A DNA stretch of 64,000 bases from Gemmatimonadaceae bacterium (GTDB taxonomy: Bacteria > Gemmatimonadota > Gemmatimonadetes > Gemmatimonadales > Gemmatimonadaceae). The stretch lies in assembly GCA_011525845.1 (NCBI GenBank), contig WYBP01000004.1:1-64000 (forward strand), written 5' to 3'. Below the pieces are notes generated by a model, which searched no databases, was not told the DNA's origin, and worked only from the letters and a program-made list of their open reading frames with translations. Below are positions 18,968 through 28,441 of this stretch, one piece after another. Numbering within the stretch: the first letter of the stretch is position 1; each line of letters begins with the position of its first letter. Position numbers and translations under genes: made by a program.

Positions 18968-20083
18968 ATGAAAATCGGCATCCCGAAGGAAATCAAAACG
19001 AACGAGAACCGCGTCTCCCTCGTGCCGGCGGGCGCCGAGGCGCTCGTGATGGCCGGGCACACGGTCCACGTCGAGCAGGGCGCAGGCCTCGGCAGCGGCT
19101 TCACCGACGAGCAGTACGTGGCGGTCGGGGCCAAGATCCTCCCCACGGCGGACGCCGTCTGGAAGGATGCCGAGATGATCATCAAGGTGAAGGAGCCGAT
19201 CGCGGTGGAGTGGCCCCGGATGCGGAAGGGGCAGACGATCTTCACCTACTTCCACTTCGCCGCCGACGAGGCGCTGACCAAGGCGCACCTCGATTCCGGT
19301 GCGACCTGCATCGCGTACGAGACGGTCGAGCTCCCGAGCCGCGAGCTCCCGCTCCTGACGCCGATGTCCGAGGTGGCGGGGCGCATGGCCGTGCAGGAAG
19401 GGGCCAAGTACCTCGAGAAGCTCTACGGCGGCCGCGGCGTGCTGCTGGGTGGCGTGCCGGGCGTCCCGCCGGGCAAGGTGGTGATCCTGGGCGGCGGCGT
19501 GGTGGGCGTGAACGCGGCGAAGATGGCGGCCGGGATGGGCGCCAAGGTGACGATCATGGACACCTCGCTCCCGCGGCTCCGCTACCTGAGCGACGTGATG
19601 CCGGCGAACGTGCAGATGATCTTCTCGAATCGCCAGAACATCCTCGAGCAGATCTCGACGGCCGACCTCGTGGTCGGGGGCGTGCTGCTCCCGGGCGCCA
19701 AGGCGCCCAAGCTGATCGTCCGCGAGGACCTCAAGCTCATGCAGCAGGGCGCGGTGATCGTGGACGTGGCGATCGACCAGGGCGGGTGCGTGGAGACCAT
19801 CAAGGCGACGACGCACGAGAACCCGGTGTACACGGTGGACGGGATCATCCACTACGGCGTGGCGAACATGCCGGGCGGCGTGCCGCGCACCTCGACGCTC
19901 GCGCTCACCAACGCGACCTTCCCCTATGCGTTCAAGCTCGCGAACAAGGGGTGGAAGCAGGCGCTCCGCGAGGACGCGGCGCTGCTCAAGGGGCTGAACG
20001 TCGTGGCGGGCAAGGTGACCTACCAGGGCGTGGCCGAGGCGTTCGGCATGGAGTACCACGAGCCGCAGCAGTTCGTGAAGTAG
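18968..20083 (+). CDS. ald: Alanine dehydrogenase
   Basis: NAD-dependent interconversion of L-alanine and pyruvate plus ammonia. 371 residues, normal length. The N-terminus [20 protein letters not shown] is diagnostic. The Rossmann loop is [20 protein letters not shown], and the C-terminal signature is [20 protein letters not shown]. The start is ATG at 18968, directly behind a CT-rich repeat-derived leader with no purine-rich ribosome site, which is unusual. A GC-rich hairpin follows the stop. Confidence 0.96.
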
Positions 20084-20198: not shown

Positions 20199-20228
20199 TT
20201 GACGCCTCCCGCGCGGGTGGGGTATGTA
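20199..20228 (+). promoter_or_regulatory. Promoter of the first plug/TonB_C chimera gene
   Basis: TTGACG (20199-20204), an 18-base spacer, TATGTA (20223-20228). It lies 27 bases before the ATG at 20256, with a GAGAGG ribosome site in between. Confidence 0.6.
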
Positions 20229-20255
20229 GGTGGGGGACCACGACGACGAGAGGCG

Positions 20256-21422
20256 ATGGCGCCGAGACGCTGGGTCACGAGCTGGTTGGGGGTGGGGACG
20301 GTCGCGCTGGCGACGGTCCTCGCGGGCGCAGCCAGGCCCGTCGCCTCCCAGGCGCCGGCGGAGCGCGGCGAGGTGGCCGGCCGGGTGGTGGATGCCGGCG
20401 GGCGCGCGGTCTCGGGCGCGCGCGTGAGCGTCCTTGGCACCACCCGCCTTGCCGAGAGCGACGACCTCGGCGCGTTCCGCCTGACCGACATCGCGACGGG
20501 GGAGGTGCGCCTGGCGGTACGACGCCTGGGCTTCGCGCCGGAGACGCTCACGGTGCTCGTGCGGACGGCGGACGCGGCCAGCGTATCGCTCTCGCTCGAG
20601 CGGGTGTCGCAGCCACTCCCCGCGGTGCAGGTGCACGGGCGCCGGGACCTCACGGGACCGATGGCCGGGTTCTACGAGCGGATGGAGCGGGGGCATGGCC
20701 GCTTCTTCACGCAGGAGCAGCTCGACAAGCAGACCTCGCGCCGGATGTCGGACCTCCTCCGCGGCATCCCCGGCCTCCGGCTGGAGCAGCGGCGTGGGGG
20801 CGCGCAGTCCGTGCGGATGCGGGGGTCGACGGTGGCGCCCCTCTTCTGGCTCGATGGGGTGCCGATGGGGATGGCCGAGCTCGACCTCGACAACTTCGAT
20901 CCGCGGACCTTCGCGGGGATCGAGATCTACAGCGGGGCGGCGACGGTCCCCGTGGAGTTCGCCGGCGGCCGGACGATGACCACCTCCGGGGGGACGGTGC
21001 TGCTCTGGACGCGGCAGGGGGAGCCGCGGGCGCGTTCACGGAAGAAGGACGGACCGTCCCCGATGAGCGTCCTGCTCCAGATGCTCGACGAGTCCCGTGT
21101 CTTCACCCGCGACTCGGTCGACACGCCCGCGACGCTCATCGGCGGGTCGCAGGGCATGCCGCTCTACCCGGACTCCCTGTACGCCGCCCGCGTCGGTGGG
21201 CGCGTGGAGGTGGAGTTCGTGGTGGACGCCGAGGGAGCGCCGCTGATGGACACGTTCGGCGTGGTGGCGAGCTCGCACCCCGCGTTCGTGGATGCGGTGC
21301 GCCGGGTGATCGAGGACCGGCGCTACGTGCCGGCCACGCGGCGGGGCAGGGCGGTCGCGCAACTGGTGCAGGTGCCCTACGAGTTCCTGCCGGACACGGG
21401 CGCTGGTACGCGCCGGCCCTGA
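20256..21422 (+). CDS. Secreted chimera: CarboxypepD_reg-like + receptor plug-like + TonB C-terminal-like domains (A)
   Basis: A 388-residue exported protein. Residues 1-33 form a signal peptide ending near ASQA. Residues 37-115 are a carboxypeptidase-regulatory-like beta-sandwich (GRVVDAGGRAVSGARVSVLG). Residues 124-255 look like a TonB-dependent receptor plug: MSDLLRGIPGL, SVRMRG, FWLDGVPMG, FAGIEIYSGAATVP and GGTVLLWTRQG. After a basic linker, residues 301-378 resemble the TonB C-terminal domain: PLYPDSLYAARVGGRVEVEF, then RRVIEDRRYVPATRRG. There is no beta-barrel and no TonB-type N-terminal membrane anchor. The paralogue at 26121 has the same layout, and the SusC/SusD pair lies between them. 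Function unknown; a role in energising or assembling the adjacent transporter is inference. Confidence 0.85.
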   Translation: MAPRRWVTSWLGVGTVALATVLAGAARPVASQAPAERGEVAGRVVDAGGRAVSGARVSVLGTTRLAESDDLGAFRLTDIATGEVRLAVRRLGFAPETLTVLVRTADAASVSLSLERVSQPLPAVQVHGRRDLTGPMAGFYERMERGHGRFFTQEQLDKQTSRRMSDLLRGIPGLRLEQRRGGAQSVRMRGSTVAPLFWLDGVPMGMAELDLDNFDPRTFAGIEIYSGAATVPVEFAGGRTMTTSGGTVLLWTRQGEPRARSRKKDGPSPMSVLLQMLDESRVFTRDSVDTPATLIGGSQGMPLYPDSLYAARVGGRVEVEFVVDAEGAPLMDTFGVVASSHPAFVDAVRRVIEDRRYVPATRRGRAVAQLVQVPYEFLPDTGAGTRRP

Positions 21423-21459
21423 GAATCGTTGAACGGTCGAGCGCCGGCCGCGACCCCCG

Positions 21460-21489
21460 TTGACGCCGACGGCCGTGCCGAGGTAGATA
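21460..21489 (+). promoter_or_regulatory. Promoter of the SusC/SusD pair
   Basis: TTGACG (21460-21465), an 18-base spacer, TAGATA (21484-21489). The -35 and spacing are identical to the promoter at 20199-20228. It predicts a leader of about 60 nt before the susC-like ATG at 21556. Confidence 0.6.
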
Positions 21490-21555
21490 CGGGTGCTGAT
21501 CTCGCGGCGGTCGCGACGTCGGCCGGACCTCTCAACCAGCTCGAGGCACTCGATC

Positions 21556-24500
21556 ATGCGACGGATCCTCCGACGCACCACGCTCATTGGCACGCTGCTC
21601 GCCGCCGCCGCTGCGGCCCTGGCGACCGGCGCGCAGGCACAGGCGACCACGGGGACCGTCGTCGTGACGGTCAAGGACGCGGCGGGAGCGCCGCTCCCGC
21701 AGGTGCAGGTGTCGATCATCAACACGCTCCTCGGCGCACAGACGAACGAGGAAGGACGCGCGACGATCCGCAGCGTGCCGACCGGCGCGCAGCAGGTGCG
21801 TGCGCTCCGGATCGGCTATGCCGAGGCGAAGATGGCGGTGACGGTCGCCGCCGGCGGCGTGGCGAACGCCGAGATCACGCTCCAGACCGTGGCGGTGACG
21901 CTGAGCGCGGTGGTCTCGACGGCCACGGGCCAGACGCGCCGCGTGGAGGTCGGGAACGCGATTCCCTCGATCGACGCGGTGAACGAGACGAAGCTCAAGC
22001 CGATCTCGAACCTCCAGGACCTCCTGAACGCCCGGGCACCGGGCGTGCAGCTCTCCACCGGCACGCAGTCCGGCACCGGGGCGCGCGTCCGCATCCGCGG
22101 TGCGGGGTCGCTCAACCTCTCGAACGACCCGATCTACGTGATCGACGGCGTCCGGATGACGTCCAACAACGGCTCGTTCGCCTTCTTCACGGGTGATGCG
22201 CAGCCGAGCCGCGTGGTGGACATCAACCCCGAGGAGATCGAGAACATCGAGATCGTGAAGGGTCCGTCGGCGGCGACGCTGTACGGCACGGATGCCGCGA
22301 ACGGCGTCATCGTGATCACGACGCGGCGCGGCCGCGCCGGCGCCCCGCGCTGGTCGGTGTACAGCGAGGTGGGCTCCCTCTCCGACCGCAACACCTACCA
22401 GAACAACTTCACCGGGTGGGACGGCACGCTGAACGCGCCCTGCCGCCTCTCCGGCATGGCGGCCGGCACCTGCACGATCGACTCGGTGCGCACCTACTCG
22501 CCGATGAACGATCCCGACGCGACGCCGATCGGGACGGGGAGCCGCTCGCAGGTGGGGCTCCAGCTCTCCGGCGGCACGGAGGCGCTCCGTTACTTCATCG
22601 GGCTCGAGAACGAGAACGAGCTCGGCGTGTTCGAGCTCCCGAAGTTCGAGCGGCGCTACCTCGACTCCGTCGGGGTGGGGAACCACTACTACACGCGGCG
22701 TCCCAACGCGCTCGACAAGCAGTCGTTCCGCCTCAACCTGAACTCGGCGGTCTCCCCGACGCTCGACATCGCGGTCAACACGAACTACATCCGCTCCACC
22801 ACGCGGCTCTCGAACTCCTCGAACGCGACCGCGGGCGTGGGGTCGCAGGCGTTCGGTGGCCCCGGGTACAAGAACAGTGGCACGGTGGCCGTCACGGGCA
22901 CACCGCTCAACGGGTACCGGGCCTGGACGCCGGCGTACACCTGGCAGGAGCTCTTCCAGCAGGGCGTGGACCGGTTCATCGCGGGCATCAACGCGCAGTG
23001 GCGTCCGTTCCCGTGGATGCAGAACCGCCTGAACTTCGGCACCGACTACACCTCGCGCGAGGACAACCACCTCCGCCTGCGTGGTGAGGCGCCGCCGCTC
23101 ACGGCGACGTATCGCCTGGGCGCGAAGGACAACTCCCGCACCGGGATCACGAACTTCACGGTGGACCTCGGCTCCTCGGCGAGCTACTCGCCGCGTCCCT
23201 GGCTGAACACCAAGACGACGTTCGGCGCGCAGTACGTGCACTACGCGTTCGACCAGAACAACGCCGGCGGCACCGAGCTCTCGGCGGGGTCGCAGCAGGC
23301 GGGCGCCAACGCGCTCCCGTCGGTGTTCGAGGCGTCGACCACCGCGCGCACGCTCGGCTTCTTCATCGAGGAGGGGCTCGCCTTCAACGACCGGCTCTTC
23401 GTGACGCTGGCGCTGCGGTCGGACCAGAACTCCGCGTTCGGCACGGACTTCCAGTCGGTGGTCTATCCGAAGGCCTCGGTCTCCTGGCTCGTCTCCGACG
23501 AGTCGTGGTACCGCGCGCCGACCTGGATCGACAACGTGCGCTTCCGCGCAGCCTTCGGTTCGTCGGGCGTGCAGCCCGGCCCGAACGACGCGCTCCGCTC
23601 CTACGCGGCGCAGCAGACCAACGTCGCGGGGACGGACCTGCCGGGCCTCGTCTTCTCGGCGATCGGCAACACCGAGTTGAAGCCTGAGCGTTCGACCGAG
23701 TTCGAGACGGGCTTCGAGGCCGGGTTCCTCGGCGGCCGCTACAACGTCGACCTGACCTACTACCACAAGAAGACGAAGGACGCGCTGATCTCGGCCATCG
23801 TGGCGCCGTCCCTCGGTGCGGCGACGAACGTGCAGCGGAACCTCGGCGCGACGATGAACCGCGGGTGGGAGCTCCTGGCCAGCGGCCGCCTCGTGGACCG
23901 TGACTGGTGGGGCGCGGACCTGACGATCAGTGCGTCCGCGAACCAGAACCGCCTGCTCGACCTGGGCGGGACGCCGGACCAGATCTTCACCAACAACCGG
24001 TTCGTCGAAGGGTACCCGATGTTCGCGTGGTGGGGCCGGCCGATCCTCGGCTGGGAGGACAAGGACGCCAACGGGATCCTGACGTACAATGCGGACCCGG
24101 CGCTCAATGAGGTGTTCGTCGGCGACTCCGCCGTGATGCTCGGGTATGCGTCGCCGCGGTACAACATGTCGATCTCGCCGGGCATCGACCTCTTCGAGCG
24201 GAAGCTCCGGATCTCCGCGCTGATCGACCGGCGCGACGGCAACCGCTACTACAACAACACCGAGCGCATCCGCTGCGCCTCGCGCCTCAACTGCAACGGG
24301 TTGAACAACCCCGAAGCGTCGTTCGAGGAGCAGGCGATGGTCGTGGCCGCGCTGATCCATCCGGCGCGCACGAACGCCGGATTCATGCAGCCCGGCGCCT
24401 TCACCAAGCTCCGCGAGGTCTCCGTCAGCTACCAGCTGCCGTCGATGGTGACGAACGCGCTGCGCTCGCGCGACGCGACGCTCACCTTCGCCGCGCGGAA

Positions 24501-24639
24501 CGTCGCCACCTGGACGCGCTTCCGCGGCGTCGACCCTGAGAACGACTTCACGGTCACGAACGGCGGCGACCTGCCGAACGACTTCCAGACCTTCGGGCCG
24601 GCCAGCTACTACATCCTCCGTCTCAATCTCGGGTTCTAG
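21556..24639 (+). CDS. SusC/RagA-type TonB-linked outer membrane receptor
   Basis: A 1027-residue outer membrane transporter. Signal peptide 1-29 ends AQAQA. A CarboxypepD_reg-like domain (about 32-115) precedes the plug (about 130-260: LNARAPGVQLSTG, RVRIRGAGSLNLSNDPIYVI, EEIENIEIVKGPSAATLYGT, GVIVITTRRG). A beta-barrel fills the rest and ends YYILRLNLGF with a terminal Phe. The ATG at 21556 begins a proper signal peptide; the frame continues upstream to 21493 without one. A SusD-like lipoprotein gene follows after 3 bases. The substrate is unknown; no polysaccharide- or protein-degrading enzymes are adjacent to suggest it. Confidence 0.92.
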   Translation: MRRILRRTTLIGTLLAAAAAALATGAQAQATTGTVVVTVKDAAGAPLPQVQVSIINTLLGAQTNEEGRATIRSVPTGAQQVRALRIGYAEAKMAVTVAAGGVANAEITLQTVAVTLSAVVSTATGQTRRVEVGNAIPSIDAVNETKLKPISNLQDLLNARAPGVQLSTGTQSGTGARVRIRGAGSLNLSNDPIYVIDGVRMTSNNGSFAFFTGDAQPSRVVDINPEEIENIEIVKGPSAATLYGTDAANGVIVITTRRGRAGAPRWSVYSEVGSLSDRNTYQNNFTGWDGTLNAPCRLSGMAAGTCTIDSVRTYSPMNDPDATPIGTGSRSQVGLQLSGGTEALRYFIGLENENELGVFELPKFERRYLDSVGVGNHYYTRRPNALDKQSFRLNLNSAVSPTLDIAVNTNYIRSTTRLSNSSNATAGVGSQAFGGPGYKNSGTVAVTGTPLNGYRAWTPAYTWQELFQQGVDRFIAGINAQWRPFPWMQNRLNFGTDYTSREDNHLRLRGEAPPLTATYRLGAKDNSRTGITNFTVDLGSSASYSPRPWLNTKTTFGAQYVHYAFDQNNAGGTELSAGSQQAGANALPSVFEASTTARTLGFFIEEGLAFNDRLFVTLALRSDQNSAFGTDFQSVVYPKASVSWLVSDESWYRAPTWIDNVRFRAAFGSSGVQPGPNDALRSYAAQQTNVAGTDLPGLVFSAIGNTELKPERSTEFETGFEAGFLGGRYNVDLTYYHKKTKDALISAIVAPSLGAATNVQRNLGATMNRGWELLASGRLVDRDWWGADLTISASANQNRLLDLGGTPDQIFTNNRFVEGYPMFAWWGRPILGWEDKDANGILTYNADPALNEVFVGDSAVMLGYASPRYNMSISPGIDLFERKLRISALIDRRDGNRYYNNTERIRCASRLNCNGLNNPEASFEEQAMVVAALIHPARTNAGFMQPGAFTKLREVSVSYQLPSMVTNALRSRDATLTFAARNVATWTRFRGVDPENDFTVTNGGDLPNDFQTFGPASYYILRLNLGF

Positions 24640-24642
24640 ACC

Positions 24643-26037
24643 ATGTCCCCAATCCTGACTTCCATGCGACGCGGCCTGCGGCACCGCCACACGCGCGTCG
24701 CCCTCGCCCTGGTGTTCCTCGGCGCGTGCTCGACGGACACCCTGCTCCGGGCGCCCGACCCCGACCTCGTGACGCCGGAGACGGTGACGAGCGCCGAGGG
24801 TGCGAACGCGGTCTACATCGGCGCGCTCGACCGCTTCCGCAACATCACCGCCGGCGCGGAGAGCTCCTGGCTCTTCGGCGGCCTGCTGGCGGATGAGTGG
24901 TCGACCTCGTCGACCTTCATCCAGAACGACGAGACGGACCAGCGCCGCGTCCAGGAGAACAACTCCTCGGTCACCGGCATGTTCCGCAACCTCGCGCGCG
25001 TGCGCACGGCGACCAACCAGGCCATCCGTGGCCTGACGACGTATGCGCCGACGCGCGTGGCGGAGACGGCGGAGATGTACTTCGCCCGCGGCTTCGCCGA
25101 GATGCAGCTGGCGCAGGACTTCTGCAACGGGATCCCGCTCTCGGACGCCTCGGGGGATGAGCTGATCTTCGGGCAGCCGCGCTCCGTCGCCGACGTGTTC
25201 GGCGTCGCGATCGCGTCGTTCGACTCCGCGTCCGCGCTGGTGGTCGGGCGGACGGATGCCGCGTCGGTGCGCGTCGAGCGCGCCGCCCGCATCGCCAAGG
25301 CCCGCGCGCAGCTCGGGCTCGGCAACGCGGCCGGGGCCGCGGTGACGCTCGCCACGGGCGCCGCGATCCCGACGACGTACGCCTACGAGCACACCTTCGC
25401 GACGACCTCGGGGGACAACATCCTCTGGGCGCAGCCCTTCTCGGCGGGCCGGTACATCGTCGGGGACAGCCTCGAGGGCACGGCACCGAACACCTTCCCG
25501 GTGGCCAACGCGATCGGCTTCTCGCGCGCTGGCGATCCGCGGCTCCCGGTGACGATCTCGACGACCGCGAACGGGCAGGATGGCCAGACCAAGCTGCGCC
25601 GGACGACCCTCTGGGCGCGGAGCACCTACGTGCCGGTGGTGAACGGCATCGATGCGCGTCTCATCGAGGCCGAGGCGCGGTTGGCCGCCAGCGACCGCCC
25701 CGGCACGCTCGCGATCCTGAATGCCCTGCGGGCGGCGCCGCCGACCCTTGGCACGGTGACACCGGCCGCGATGCCGGCACTCGCCGATCCGGGGAGCCAG
25801 GCCGCGATGGTCTCGATGTTCTTCCGGGAGAAGGCGTTCTGGACCTTCAGCCGCGGCCAGCGGCTTGGGGACATGCGCCGCATGATCCGCAACTACGGCC
25901 GGACGGAGGCGAACACCTTCCCGACGGGCCAGCACTACAAGGGCGTGGCCTATGGCACGGACGTGAACCTGCCGGTGCCGACGGACGAGCGCTCCAACAA
26001 CCCGAACTCGCAGGGGTGCACGGACCGCAATCCGTGA
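24643..26037 (+). CDS. SusD/RagB-type nutrient-binding outer membrane lipoprotein
   Basis: A 464-residue lipoprotein. The signal ends in a lipobox with the acylated cysteine at C29 (VFLGAC). The helical SusD-like body includes NAVYIGALDRFRNITAG, ARGFAEMQLAQDFCNGIPLS and a C-terminal region ending in ERSNNPNSQGC, similar to the ends of other RagB/SusD proteins. It starts three bases after the SusC-type receptor gene and would form the lid of that transporter. A strong hairpin at 26062-26100 ends the pair's transcript. Confidence 0.88.
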   Translation: MSPILTSMRRGLRHRHTRVALALVFLGACSTDTLLRAPDPDLVTPETVTSAEGANAVYIGALDRFRNITAGAESSWLFGGLLADEWSTSSTFIQNDETDQRRVQENNSSVTGMFRNLARVRTATNQAIRGLTTYAPTRVAETAEMYFARGFAEMQLAQDFCNGIPLSDASGDELIFGQPRSVADVFGVAIASFDSASALVVGRTDAASVRVERAARIAKARAQLGLGNAAGAAVTLATGAAIPTTYAYEHTFATTSGDNILWAQPFSAGRYIVGDSLEGTAPNTFPVANAIGFSRAGDPRLPVTISTTANGQDGQTKLRRTTLWARSTYVPVVNGIDARLIEAEARLAASDRPGTLAILNALRAAPPTLGTVTPAAMPALADPGSQAAMVSMFFREKAFWTFSRGQRLGDMRRMIRNYGRTEANTFPTGQHYKGVAYGTDVNLPVPTDERSNNPNSQGCTDRNP

Positions 26038-26061
26038 CACGCGCGAGGTAAGGAAGTGGAG

Positions 26062-26103
26062 CTGGCCCGTCGGGTGGCGGAATGTCGCCCGGCGGGCCAG
26101 TTT
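26062..26103 (+). terminator. Rho-independent-like terminator after the SusD-like gene
   Basis: CTGGCCCGTCGGGTGGC (from 26062) pairs with the stretch ending CGCCCGGCGGGCCAG at 26100, using two U-G wobbles in the + strand RNA, around a short loop. The stem is followed directly by TTTCGT. It separates the SusCD pair from the second chimera gene. Confidence 0.7.
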
Positions 26104-26120
26104 CGTCATCGGGTGGTCGC

Positions 26121-27293
26121 ATGGGAGGGCGCGTGACGACTCGTGGCACGATGGTCGCTGCATCCCTGCTCGCCGCGGCGCTGGTCGCGGCGGGTGCGGC
26201 GGTGCACGCGCAGGACCCCGCAGGAGCGCGCGGCGGCGTCCGTGGCGAGGTGCGCGACGCCGAGGGCCGTGGTGTGGCAGGTGCCCGGGTCGAGGTGGTC
26301 GGGAGCCAGCGGGCCGGCGAGAGCGACGCCTCCGGGGGCTACGAGGTGAGCGGACTCGGGCTCGGCCAGGCCCGGCTCCTCATCCGCCGCATCGGGTTCT
26401 CGCCGGAGTCACTGCTCCTGCAGGTCGAGGGCCCGCGCACGGTGGCGCCGGCGGTCGTCCTGCGCCGGGTGGGGGACCTGATGCAGCCCGTCGTGGTGCA
26501 GGGCAGGCGCGACCTCAAGGGACCGATGGCCGGCTTCTACGCGAGGATGGAACGGGGGCAGGGTCGGTTCTTCACCGAGTCTCAGCTGGAGAAGCTGCGC
26601 TCCCCCCGCATGACGGACCTGCTGCGCCGGATCCCGGGGCTGGGGGTCTCCCAGCGGAAGTTCGGCACCACCTCGGTCCGGATGCGCGGGTCCTGGGTGG
26701 CCCCCCTCGTCTGGCTCGACGGGGTGCCGATGGGAGCGGGGGAGGTGGACCTCGACAACTTCGACCCCCGCACGTTCGCGGGGATCGAGGTGTACAGCGG
26801 TTCCGCGACCGTCCCGATGGAGTTCGCCGGCACCCAGACGATGACCACCTCCGGCGGGACGATCATCCTCTGGACCCGGCAGGGCCGGCTCTCGCCCCCC
26901 CGGCGCGGGCCCGACCAGCCCTCCCCGAGCAGCGTCATCGCCCGGCTGCTGGAGCGCGACGAGGCCTTCACGCGGGACGAGGTCGACACCCCCGCACGGG
27001 CGCTCGGGGAGTCGGAGGTGACCCCCATGTACCCGGATTCGCTCTTCAACGCCCGTATCGCGGGGCAGATCGAGGTGGAGTTCATCGTGGACCATCGCGG
27101 GCAGCCCCGGATGGACACCTTCGGGGTGGTGGCGACCACGCACGCCGCACTGGAAGAGGCCGTTCGGCGCGCCATCCAGTCCCGGGTGTTCCTCCCCGCG
27201 ACCCGCGGCGGCGTCTCCGTCGCGCAGCTGGTCCAGCAGCCGTTCCGGTTCGAACCGGACGGCCGGGCGTCAGCGCGCAAACCTCAGGACTGA
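26121..27293 (+). CDS. Secreted chimera: CarboxypepD_reg-like + receptor plug-like + TonB C-terminal-like domains (B)
   Basis: A 390-residue paralogue of the gene at 20256 with the same domain order. A signal peptide ends near VHAQ, followed by a beta-sandwich (GEVRDAEGRGVAGARVEVVG). The plug-like region has DLKGPMAGFYARMERGQGRF, LVWLDGVPMG, GIEVYSGSATVP and GGTIILWTRQG. The TonB_C-like end runs TPMYPDSLFNARIAGQIEVE then AIQSRVFLPATRGG. Conservation with copy A is strongest across plug and TonB_C parts. The start is uncertain: ATG 26121, GTG 26133 (with GGGAGG just upstream) and ATG 26151 are all in frame. The frame also runs back into the terminator at 26082, which is unlikely. Function unknown. 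Confidence 0.85.
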   Translation: MGGRVTTRGTMVAASLLAAALVAAGAAVHAQDPAGARGGVRGEVRDAEGRGVAGARVEVVGSQRAGESDASGGYEVSGLGLGQARLLIRRIGFSPESLLLQVEGPRTVAPAVVLRRVGDLMQPVVVQGRRDLKGPMAGFYARMERGQGRFFTESQLEKLRSPRMTDLLRRIPGLGVSQRKFGTTSVRMRGSWVAPLVWLDGVPMGAGEVDLDNFDPRTFAGIEVYSGSATVPMEFAGTQTMTTSGGTIILWTRQGRLSPPRRGPDQPSPSSVIARLLERDEAFTRDEVDTPARALGESEVTPMYPDSLFNARIAGQIEVEFIVDHRGQPRMDTFGVVATTHAALEEAVRRAIQSRVFLPATRGGVSVAQLVQQPFRFEPDGRASARKPQD

Positions 27294-27403: not shown

Positions 27404-28441
27404 ATGCGTTGGCCGTTCTTTCAAAAAGGTGGATTCCTCTCGGCGAACGCCATCGCCGTGGATCTCGGAACGGCGAACACGCTCATCTACGTCAAGGGTG
27501 AGGGCATCGTCCTGAACGAGCCGTCCGTGGTCGCCATCGATCGCGAGACGAAGCGCATCAAGGGCGTGGGCCTCGAGGCGAAGCGGATGCTCGGCCGCAC
27601 GCCCGACGGCGTGCTCGCGGTGCGGCCGATGAAGGACGGCGTGATCGCCGACTTCGACGTGACCGAGAAGATGCTCCGCTTCTTCCTCGAGCTCATCATC
27701 AAGAACCACATGTTCCGCGTGAAGCCGCGCGTGATCGTGTGCGTGCCCTCGGGGATCACCGAGGTGGAGCGCCGCGCGGTGCGCGACTCCGCGCTCGGCG
27801 CCGGCGCGAAGGAGGTGTTCATGGTGGCGGAGCCGATGGCGGCGGCGATCGGCGTCGGCCTCCCGGTGGAGACGCCGACGGGGAACATGGTGATCGACAT
27901 CGGGGGCGGGACGACGGAGATCGCGGTGATCGCGCTCTCGGGCATCGTCTCCGACACCTCGATCCGCACGGGCGGCGACGAGCTCGACGCGAGCATCGTG
28001 CAGTTCATGCGGAAGAGCTACAACCTCCTGATCGGCGAGCCGACGGCGGAGCAGATCAAGATCCAGATCGGCTCGGCGGCGCCGATGGGGGAGGAACGCG
28101 AGATGGAGGTGAAGGGACGCGACCTCGTCTCGGGCATCCCCAAGACGGTGCGCGTGCACTCGGCGGAGATCCGCGAGGCGGTGCAGGAGCCGATCCAGCA
28201 GATCGTGAACGCGGTGCGGCGCGCGCTGGAGATCACGCCGCCGGAGCTGGCGTCGGACATCGTCGACCGCGGGATCGTGATGACCGGGGGCGGCGCGCTC
28301 ATCCGCGGGCTCGACGTGCTGCTCACGCAGGAGACCGGGCTGCCGATCCATGTCGACGAGGACCCGCTGACCTGCGTGGTGCGCGGCTGCGGCCGGATCC
28401 TCGACGACGAGGAGAAGTACTGGTCAGTGCTGAGCACCTGA
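27404..28441 (+). CDS. mreB: Rod shape-determining actin homologue MreB
   Basis: A 345-residue actin-like ATPase that organises lateral wall synthesis at the inner membrane. The nucleotide pocket motifs are [30 protein letters not shown] and the adenosine motif [24 protein letters not shown] is also present. First gene of mreB-mreC-mreD-mrdA-rodA, the complete elongasome core, with mreC 13 bases downstream. This argues for a rod-shaped cell. Confidence 0.97.

Follow-up and report, generated by a model that had tools for sequence, protein, structure and literature searches.

Proteins combining the front half of a SusC-type receptor with a TonB C-terminal domain in Gemmatimonadaceae: possible regulators or adaptors of the Ton system

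Closest described systems and domain composition

In its logic, the closest described analogue of the proteins analysed here is VreA (PA0674) of the PUMA3 cell-surface signalling system of Pseudomonas aeruginosa. VreA is a periplasmic, barrel-less receptor relative with a TolA/TonB-like C-terminal domain (PMC2729926), and our proteins also lack a barrel, end in such a domain and are probably periplasmic. However, VreA involves an STN domain, for which we obtained no Pfam match in either of the two copies of our protein (copies A and B); their front part is instead made up of CarboxypepD_reg, a TonB box and a full plug. Moreover, VreA is encoded beside vreI and vreR, whereas the neighbours in the window (the whole stretch of 64,000 nucleotides that was analysed) are ald, SusC, SusD and mreB. 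Because front domain and partners differ, our proteins, which are called chimeras in the following, are not members of the VreA family.

SusC/RagA- and Oar-type transporters carry the same elements in their front half (CarboxypepD_reg NTE, TonB box, plug). In contrast to them, the chimeras have no barrel, and thus no pore, but they involve a TonB_C domain, and most of them carry a cysteine pair that was found in none of 36 SusC proteins. With the TonB energy transducer, the chimeras share the fold of the C-terminal domain and the conserved YP and G positions (Y304 is nearly invariant in the family; P305, G315 and G327 are invariant). Unlike TonB, they lack a proline-rich spacer (none was found in the linker 256-300 of copies A and B), they are not encoded together with exbBD, and they carry a probable cleaved signal peptide where TonB has a membrane anchor. 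The MxcH-type myxobacterial receptor (NF038079), to which the chimeras gave a weak match, likewise unites TonB_C with parts of a receptor in a single chain. However, in the 792-residue MxcH model it is the start that aligns with the TonB_C stretch, which points to an N-terminal TonB_C, whereas in the chimeras this domain is C-terminal and a barrel is lacking. In MxcH, the N-terminal TonB_C is presumably followed by a complete receptor.

Copies A and B (Table 1) are paralogues, which share 58% identity over 358 residues (E 5e-143). The earlier note on this DNA had given the coordinates and reading frames of both ORFs correctly, and its reading by eye of a CarboxypepD_reg-like, a plug-like and a TonB_C-like region was confirmed by Pfam matches above the curated cut-offs in both copies. 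For copies A and B, these were 8.5e-14 and 1.3e-10 (CarboxypepD_reg), 2.5e-13 and 4.9e-11 (Plug, PF07715) and 5.5e-9 and 2.5e-7 (TonB_C, PF03544). When 43 aligned relatives were scanned singly, Plug and TonB_C were detected in all of them and CarboxypepD_reg in 42. The absence of a barrel, which had also been claimed, was borne out by the lack of a Pfam match to the 22-strand barrel family (PF00593) in either copy, the chains of which stop after 388 and 390 residues. Among the NCBIfam models, tonB_Cterm scored above its cut-off and the fronts of receptors, including that of MxcH, were matched weakly. Ahead of the plug, the chimera pattern L..V.V.GR can be aligned position by position with the SusC box L.EVVVTG and is a putative TonB box. 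Judged from the sequences only, 65 of 83 chimeras have a hydrophobic N-terminus with an AQ motif, usually without a later membrane-like segment, and the previous prediction that both proteins are exported by a signal sequence is upheld. Taken together, the domain composition of the chimera is secure: it is the front half of a SusC/Oar-type receptor (NTE, TonB box, plug) with a TonB C-terminal domain at the place of the barrel.

Table 1. Coordinates of the features in the window
Feature	Position	Strand	Basis
Alanine dehydrogenase (ald), upstream of the chimera site and conserved there across the genus	18968..20083	+	TIGR00518; synteny
Promoter-like site of copy A, TTGACG-N17-GTATGT	20199..20227	+	
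Copy A, exported (predicted) NTE-TonB box-Plug-TonB_C chimera, 388 aa	20256..21422	+	
Copy A NTE, CarboxypepD_reg, transthyretin-like sandwich, residues 38-117	20367..20606	+	Pfam; 5aq0 Z 15.1; SusC NTE 9hfj Z 14.0
Copy A TonB-box-like strand LPAVQVHGRR, residues 121-130	20616..20645	+	Alignment with SusC TonB box L.EVVVTG
Copy A plug, residues 143-254	20682..21017	+	Pfam Plug 2.5e-13; SusC 6z9a_B plug Z 10.2
Copy A TonB C-terminal domain, residues 289-381	21120..21398	+	Pfam TonB_C; 6i97_D Z 10.5
Promoter-like site of SusC, TTGACG-N17-GTAGAT	21460..21488	+	
SusC/RagA-type TonB-dependent transporter	21556..24639	+	TIGR04056 404 bits, cut-off 368
Divergent SusD-like lipoprotein	24664..26037	+	Profile vs PDB SusD homologues, best 2.6e-10
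Hairpin between SusD and copy B	26057..26106	+	-45.4 kcal/mol, z -7.7
Copy B, architecture as copy A, 390 aa	26121..27293	+	
Copy B TonB-box-like strand LMQPVVVQGR	26481..26510	+	Alignments
Copy B TonB C-terminal domain, residues 302-378	27024..27254	+	Pfam TonB_C 2.5e-7
mreB, downstream of the chimera site and conserved there across the genus	27404..28441	+	TIGR00904; synteny

The genes between the two copies had been called SusC and SusD, and both assignments are correct; the SusD gene gave no Pfam match above cut-off and could be assigned only with a profile built from the protein and its relatives. The pattern TTGACG-N17-GTANNT occurs in the window only at 20199 and 21460 (0 expected), and copy A and the SusCD pair do share the -35 element and the spacing that had been ascribed to their promoters. 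With a slightly stricter form (GTANRT), the 3.58 Mb genome yielded 4 matches versus 1 in the backward control, and a sigma-70 promoter scan gave nothing above threshold. The proposed terminator that isolates copy B was retained in part: the strong hairpin in front of this gene is a probable terminator, but its U tract is weak and a standard terminator scan did not include it among its terminators.

Distribution, gene neighbourhood and history

When 395 Gemmatimonadota genomes were searched with a profile, 320 of them yielded matches. Full-length chimeras with TonB_C were counted in about 75 genomes among the matches listed, and all of these belong to the family of the window, a restriction that holds within Gemmatimonadota, the phylum searched. 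Named members of this family include Gemmatimonas and Gemmatimonadaceae, which are soil and freshwater bacteria. In the other Gemmatimonadota families, the matches listed involve NTE and plug only (ORFs mostly of about 260-330 aa), and these sequences indicate a phylum-wide group of barrel-less plug proteins without TonB_C. Four loci (L073, L106, L118, L119) encode longer NTE-plug proteins (about 440-525 aa) with an additional C-terminal part. In the source genome (3.58 Mb), the TonB of which is encoded at C18:205485, there is a third chimera (C13:250169) along with several plug-only proteins. A further genome scan, which was based on a closer alignment, reached near relatives only. Among plasmid homologues, there were only plug-only or ordinary receptor matches and none of them spanned 80% of the query. 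A literature search retrieved no paper in which TonB_C, Plug and CarboxypepD_reg occur together as whole words, and no description of barrel-less plug proteins was found.

Three reduced genomes of 1.8-2.1 Mb (G028, G170, G385) retain 11-16 receptor barrels, and two TonB_C genes were found in each of them: the chimera and a gene beside exbD, which is the true TonB. The chimera does not lie beside exbB or exbD, and the ExbD genes adjoin other TonB_C genes.

The plug of the chimeras involves two cysteines in the motifs RGxxCxP and xCGxI (positions 193 and 245 in copy A numbering). Both residues are present in 66 of 83 distinct chimeras and both are absent from the other 17, so that mixed cases do not occur (0/83). 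The four mixed cases seen in a second alignment with shortened rows were attributed to rows that end before the second cysteine. The two positions are the top covarying column pair, and 18 of 20 plug-only proteins carry both cysteines. We infer from this pattern that the pair probably forms a disulfide, which may steady the plug when there is no barrel. The window copies sit in a part of the tree that lost both cysteines.

In the genus of the window, five loci (L062, L066, L081, L124, L139) show the order ald-chimera-mreB without SusCD. A sixth (L129) begins at the chimera, which is followed by mreB, and also has no SusCD. At L062 and L066, the chimera starts 2 bp after ald, a spacing that applies to the streamlined genomes G028 and G170. 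Locus L121 reads ald-SusC-SusD-chimera-mreB and has one chimera, and in the closest relative (L120) the order is SusD-chimera-chimera-mreB with the copies side by side. In a tree of 83 chimeras, copy A groups with the second L120 copy and copy B with the first. Thus, the duplication predates the split and the bracket in the window results from a local rearrangement. The synteny data and the tree rule out that SusCD bracketed by two chimeras, the arrangement which the earlier note had described for the window, is a conserved unit; the SusCD pair between the window copies is a lineage-specific neighbour and not evidence of a three-part machine at this locus.

When the whole family was considered, SusC was located within two genes of 27 of the 78 placeable chimeras (those not at contig edges) versus about 0.9 expected, a value that derives from 9 SusC genes in some 3,300 genes (gene number estimated) and that has to be read with the relatives not being independent. 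SusC is the next gene downstream in 21/80 chimeras, and on the tree the SusC label changes 5 times versus 21 times in shuffles. Most of the SusC-linked chimeras fall into two supported clades with the order chimera-SusC-SusD, and many of them have a GDSL-TPR gene upstream. For 43 of the 78 chimeras, neither SusC nor ald-mreB was found within two genes, and for 8 more it was ald-mreB only. The anticipated co-occurrence with SusCD in Gemmatimonadota holds for the 27 chimeras mentioned, but in the window's own clade (39 members) SusC is nearby in only 4. Occurrence away from receptors, which had been named as an argument against a receptor-related role, applies to the remaining 35 members of this clade. 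However, since the chimera is located directly upstream of SusC-SusD in two other clades, the link to TonB-dependent receptors is still supported.

The conserved block GDSL-TPR/chimera/SusC/SusD was seen at nine loci (L100, L104, L087, L090, L092, L094, L096, L179, L181), and at L104 a 586-aa gene further upstream looks carbamoyltransferase-like by eye. The composition of the block suggests a glycan-related uptake system. Plug-only proteins also adjoin two further SusC genes of one genome (L101, 8040-8855, and L102), so that a barrel-less plug is encoded next to 4 of its 9 SusC genes.

Predicted structure and the TonB-box strand

Copy A was modelled with AlphaFold2 on the family alignment (43 rows), and the full model reached a pLDDT of 87.9 and a pTM of 0.77. 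Among solved structures, its front resembles carboxypeptidase transthyretin-like domains and the SusC NTE of 9hfj. Residues 143-254 correspond to the plug that a SusC homologue shows in 6z9a (Z 10.2), and residues 289-381 to TonB from the FoxA complex (6i97_D) with a Z of 10.5 and an rmsd of 1.6 over 89 residues. A strand was predicted at residues 124-127 of this model, within a block (121-130) that has a mean pLDDT of 87. As deletion control, residues 33-264, from which the signal peptide and TonB_C are removed, were modelled on the same 43 rows. Here, residues 124-127 were coil, the pLDDT of the block 123-132 was 54 and the pTM was 0.56, and the remaining NTE-plug elements were arranged nearly as in the full model.

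TonB joins the boxes of receptors via strand addition (PMC11658791, review). Since the TonB-box strand of copy A is ordered in the presence of TonB_C and disordered in its absence, the models suggest that the TonB box is clasped by the TonB_C domain of the same protein. Strand 124-127 would then pair with TonB_C, as we infer from the deletion model, but a swapped dimer is possible and would give the same picture. Covariation between box and TonB_C columns (mutual information) was at background in an alignment of about 68 effective sequences, which is too shallow to decide. Plug-only relatives without TonB_C retain a weaker V.V motif.

Candidate functions

It is likely that the chimera serves the Ton system. 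Our main reading, to which we assign a probability of about 0.4, is that it acts as a periplasmic regulator or adaptor of this system, which is self-locked at rest and works by exchange. At rest, TonB_C would clasp the TonB box of its own chain via strand addition, as TonB does with the boxes of receptors, and a closed periplasmic protein would result. The clasp would open in one of two ways: either TonB takes over the box, or TonB_C, once free, engages the TonB box of a receptor. This exchange would set the amount of TonB or receptor that is engaged. The target may be one SusCD system in the SusC-SusD-linked clades or a general one in the ald-mreB clade of the window. On the basis of the model and its deletion control, the cis lock appears to be the best-supported mechanism. 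The earlier note did not contain this reading; the decoy or bridge functions it named are possible. More specifically, TonB_C may hold its own box permanently or reversibly, and plug and puller would then form a self-contained switch that competes with receptors for TonB. We put this specific form forward tentatively, as an idea that may well turn out wrong.

A rather unlikely alternative is that the chimera works in trans. Here, TonB_C would bind the TonB box of a partner SusC and the chimera's own plug and box would be pulled by the TonB of the inner membrane; the chimera would then either bridge TonB and the receptor or hold the receptor in reserve. This scenario is in line with the two supported clades in which SusC-SusD directly follows the chimera and with the conservation of both TonB box and TonB_C within one chain. 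However, the predicted model supplies TonB_C with a strand of its own to bind, a SusC neighbour is mostly absent in the clade of the window, and the contact between TonB_C and a receptor is hypothetical.

We consider it unlikely that the domains have been reused for an envelope task outside the Ton system, for instance at the cell-shape locus ald-mreB. The location of the chimera between ald and mreB in the genus, 2 bp after ald in streamlined genomes, and its varied neighbours elsewhere would fit such a task, but the TonB box and the TonB marks are conserved and the partnership with SusC-SusD recurs in other clades. Still more doubtful is a signalling adaptor, a barrel-less periplasmic receptor relative that would sense an event at the outer membrane and signal to an anti-sigma factor. 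For VreA, the lack of a barrel, a mostly soluble nature and the TolA/TonB-like C-terminal domain have been described (PMC2729926), but its front is an STN domain and that of the chimera consists of CarboxypepD_reg and plug, and there is no sigma or anti-sigma gene among the annotated neighbours. Finally, decaying receptor fragments without function, for which one might cite front domains that are assigned by Pfam as in complete receptors, are highly improbable and largely refuted by conservation: the chimeras are intact in about 75 genomes among the matches listed, with invariant residues, they are kept in reduced genomes, and they carry a covarying cysteine pair that is absent from SusC.

Our data introduce barrel-less plugs as a family that spans the phylum and in which a cysteine pair is conserved. 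If the chimera is a self-locked regulator or adaptor, it would also bear on the question of how one TonB is shared among many receptors. A widespread soluble protein that possesses both sides of the contact between TonB and receptor would be a natural candidate for a regulator. In addition, the chimera may provide a small, expressible system in which recognition of the TonB box can be studied without a membrane.
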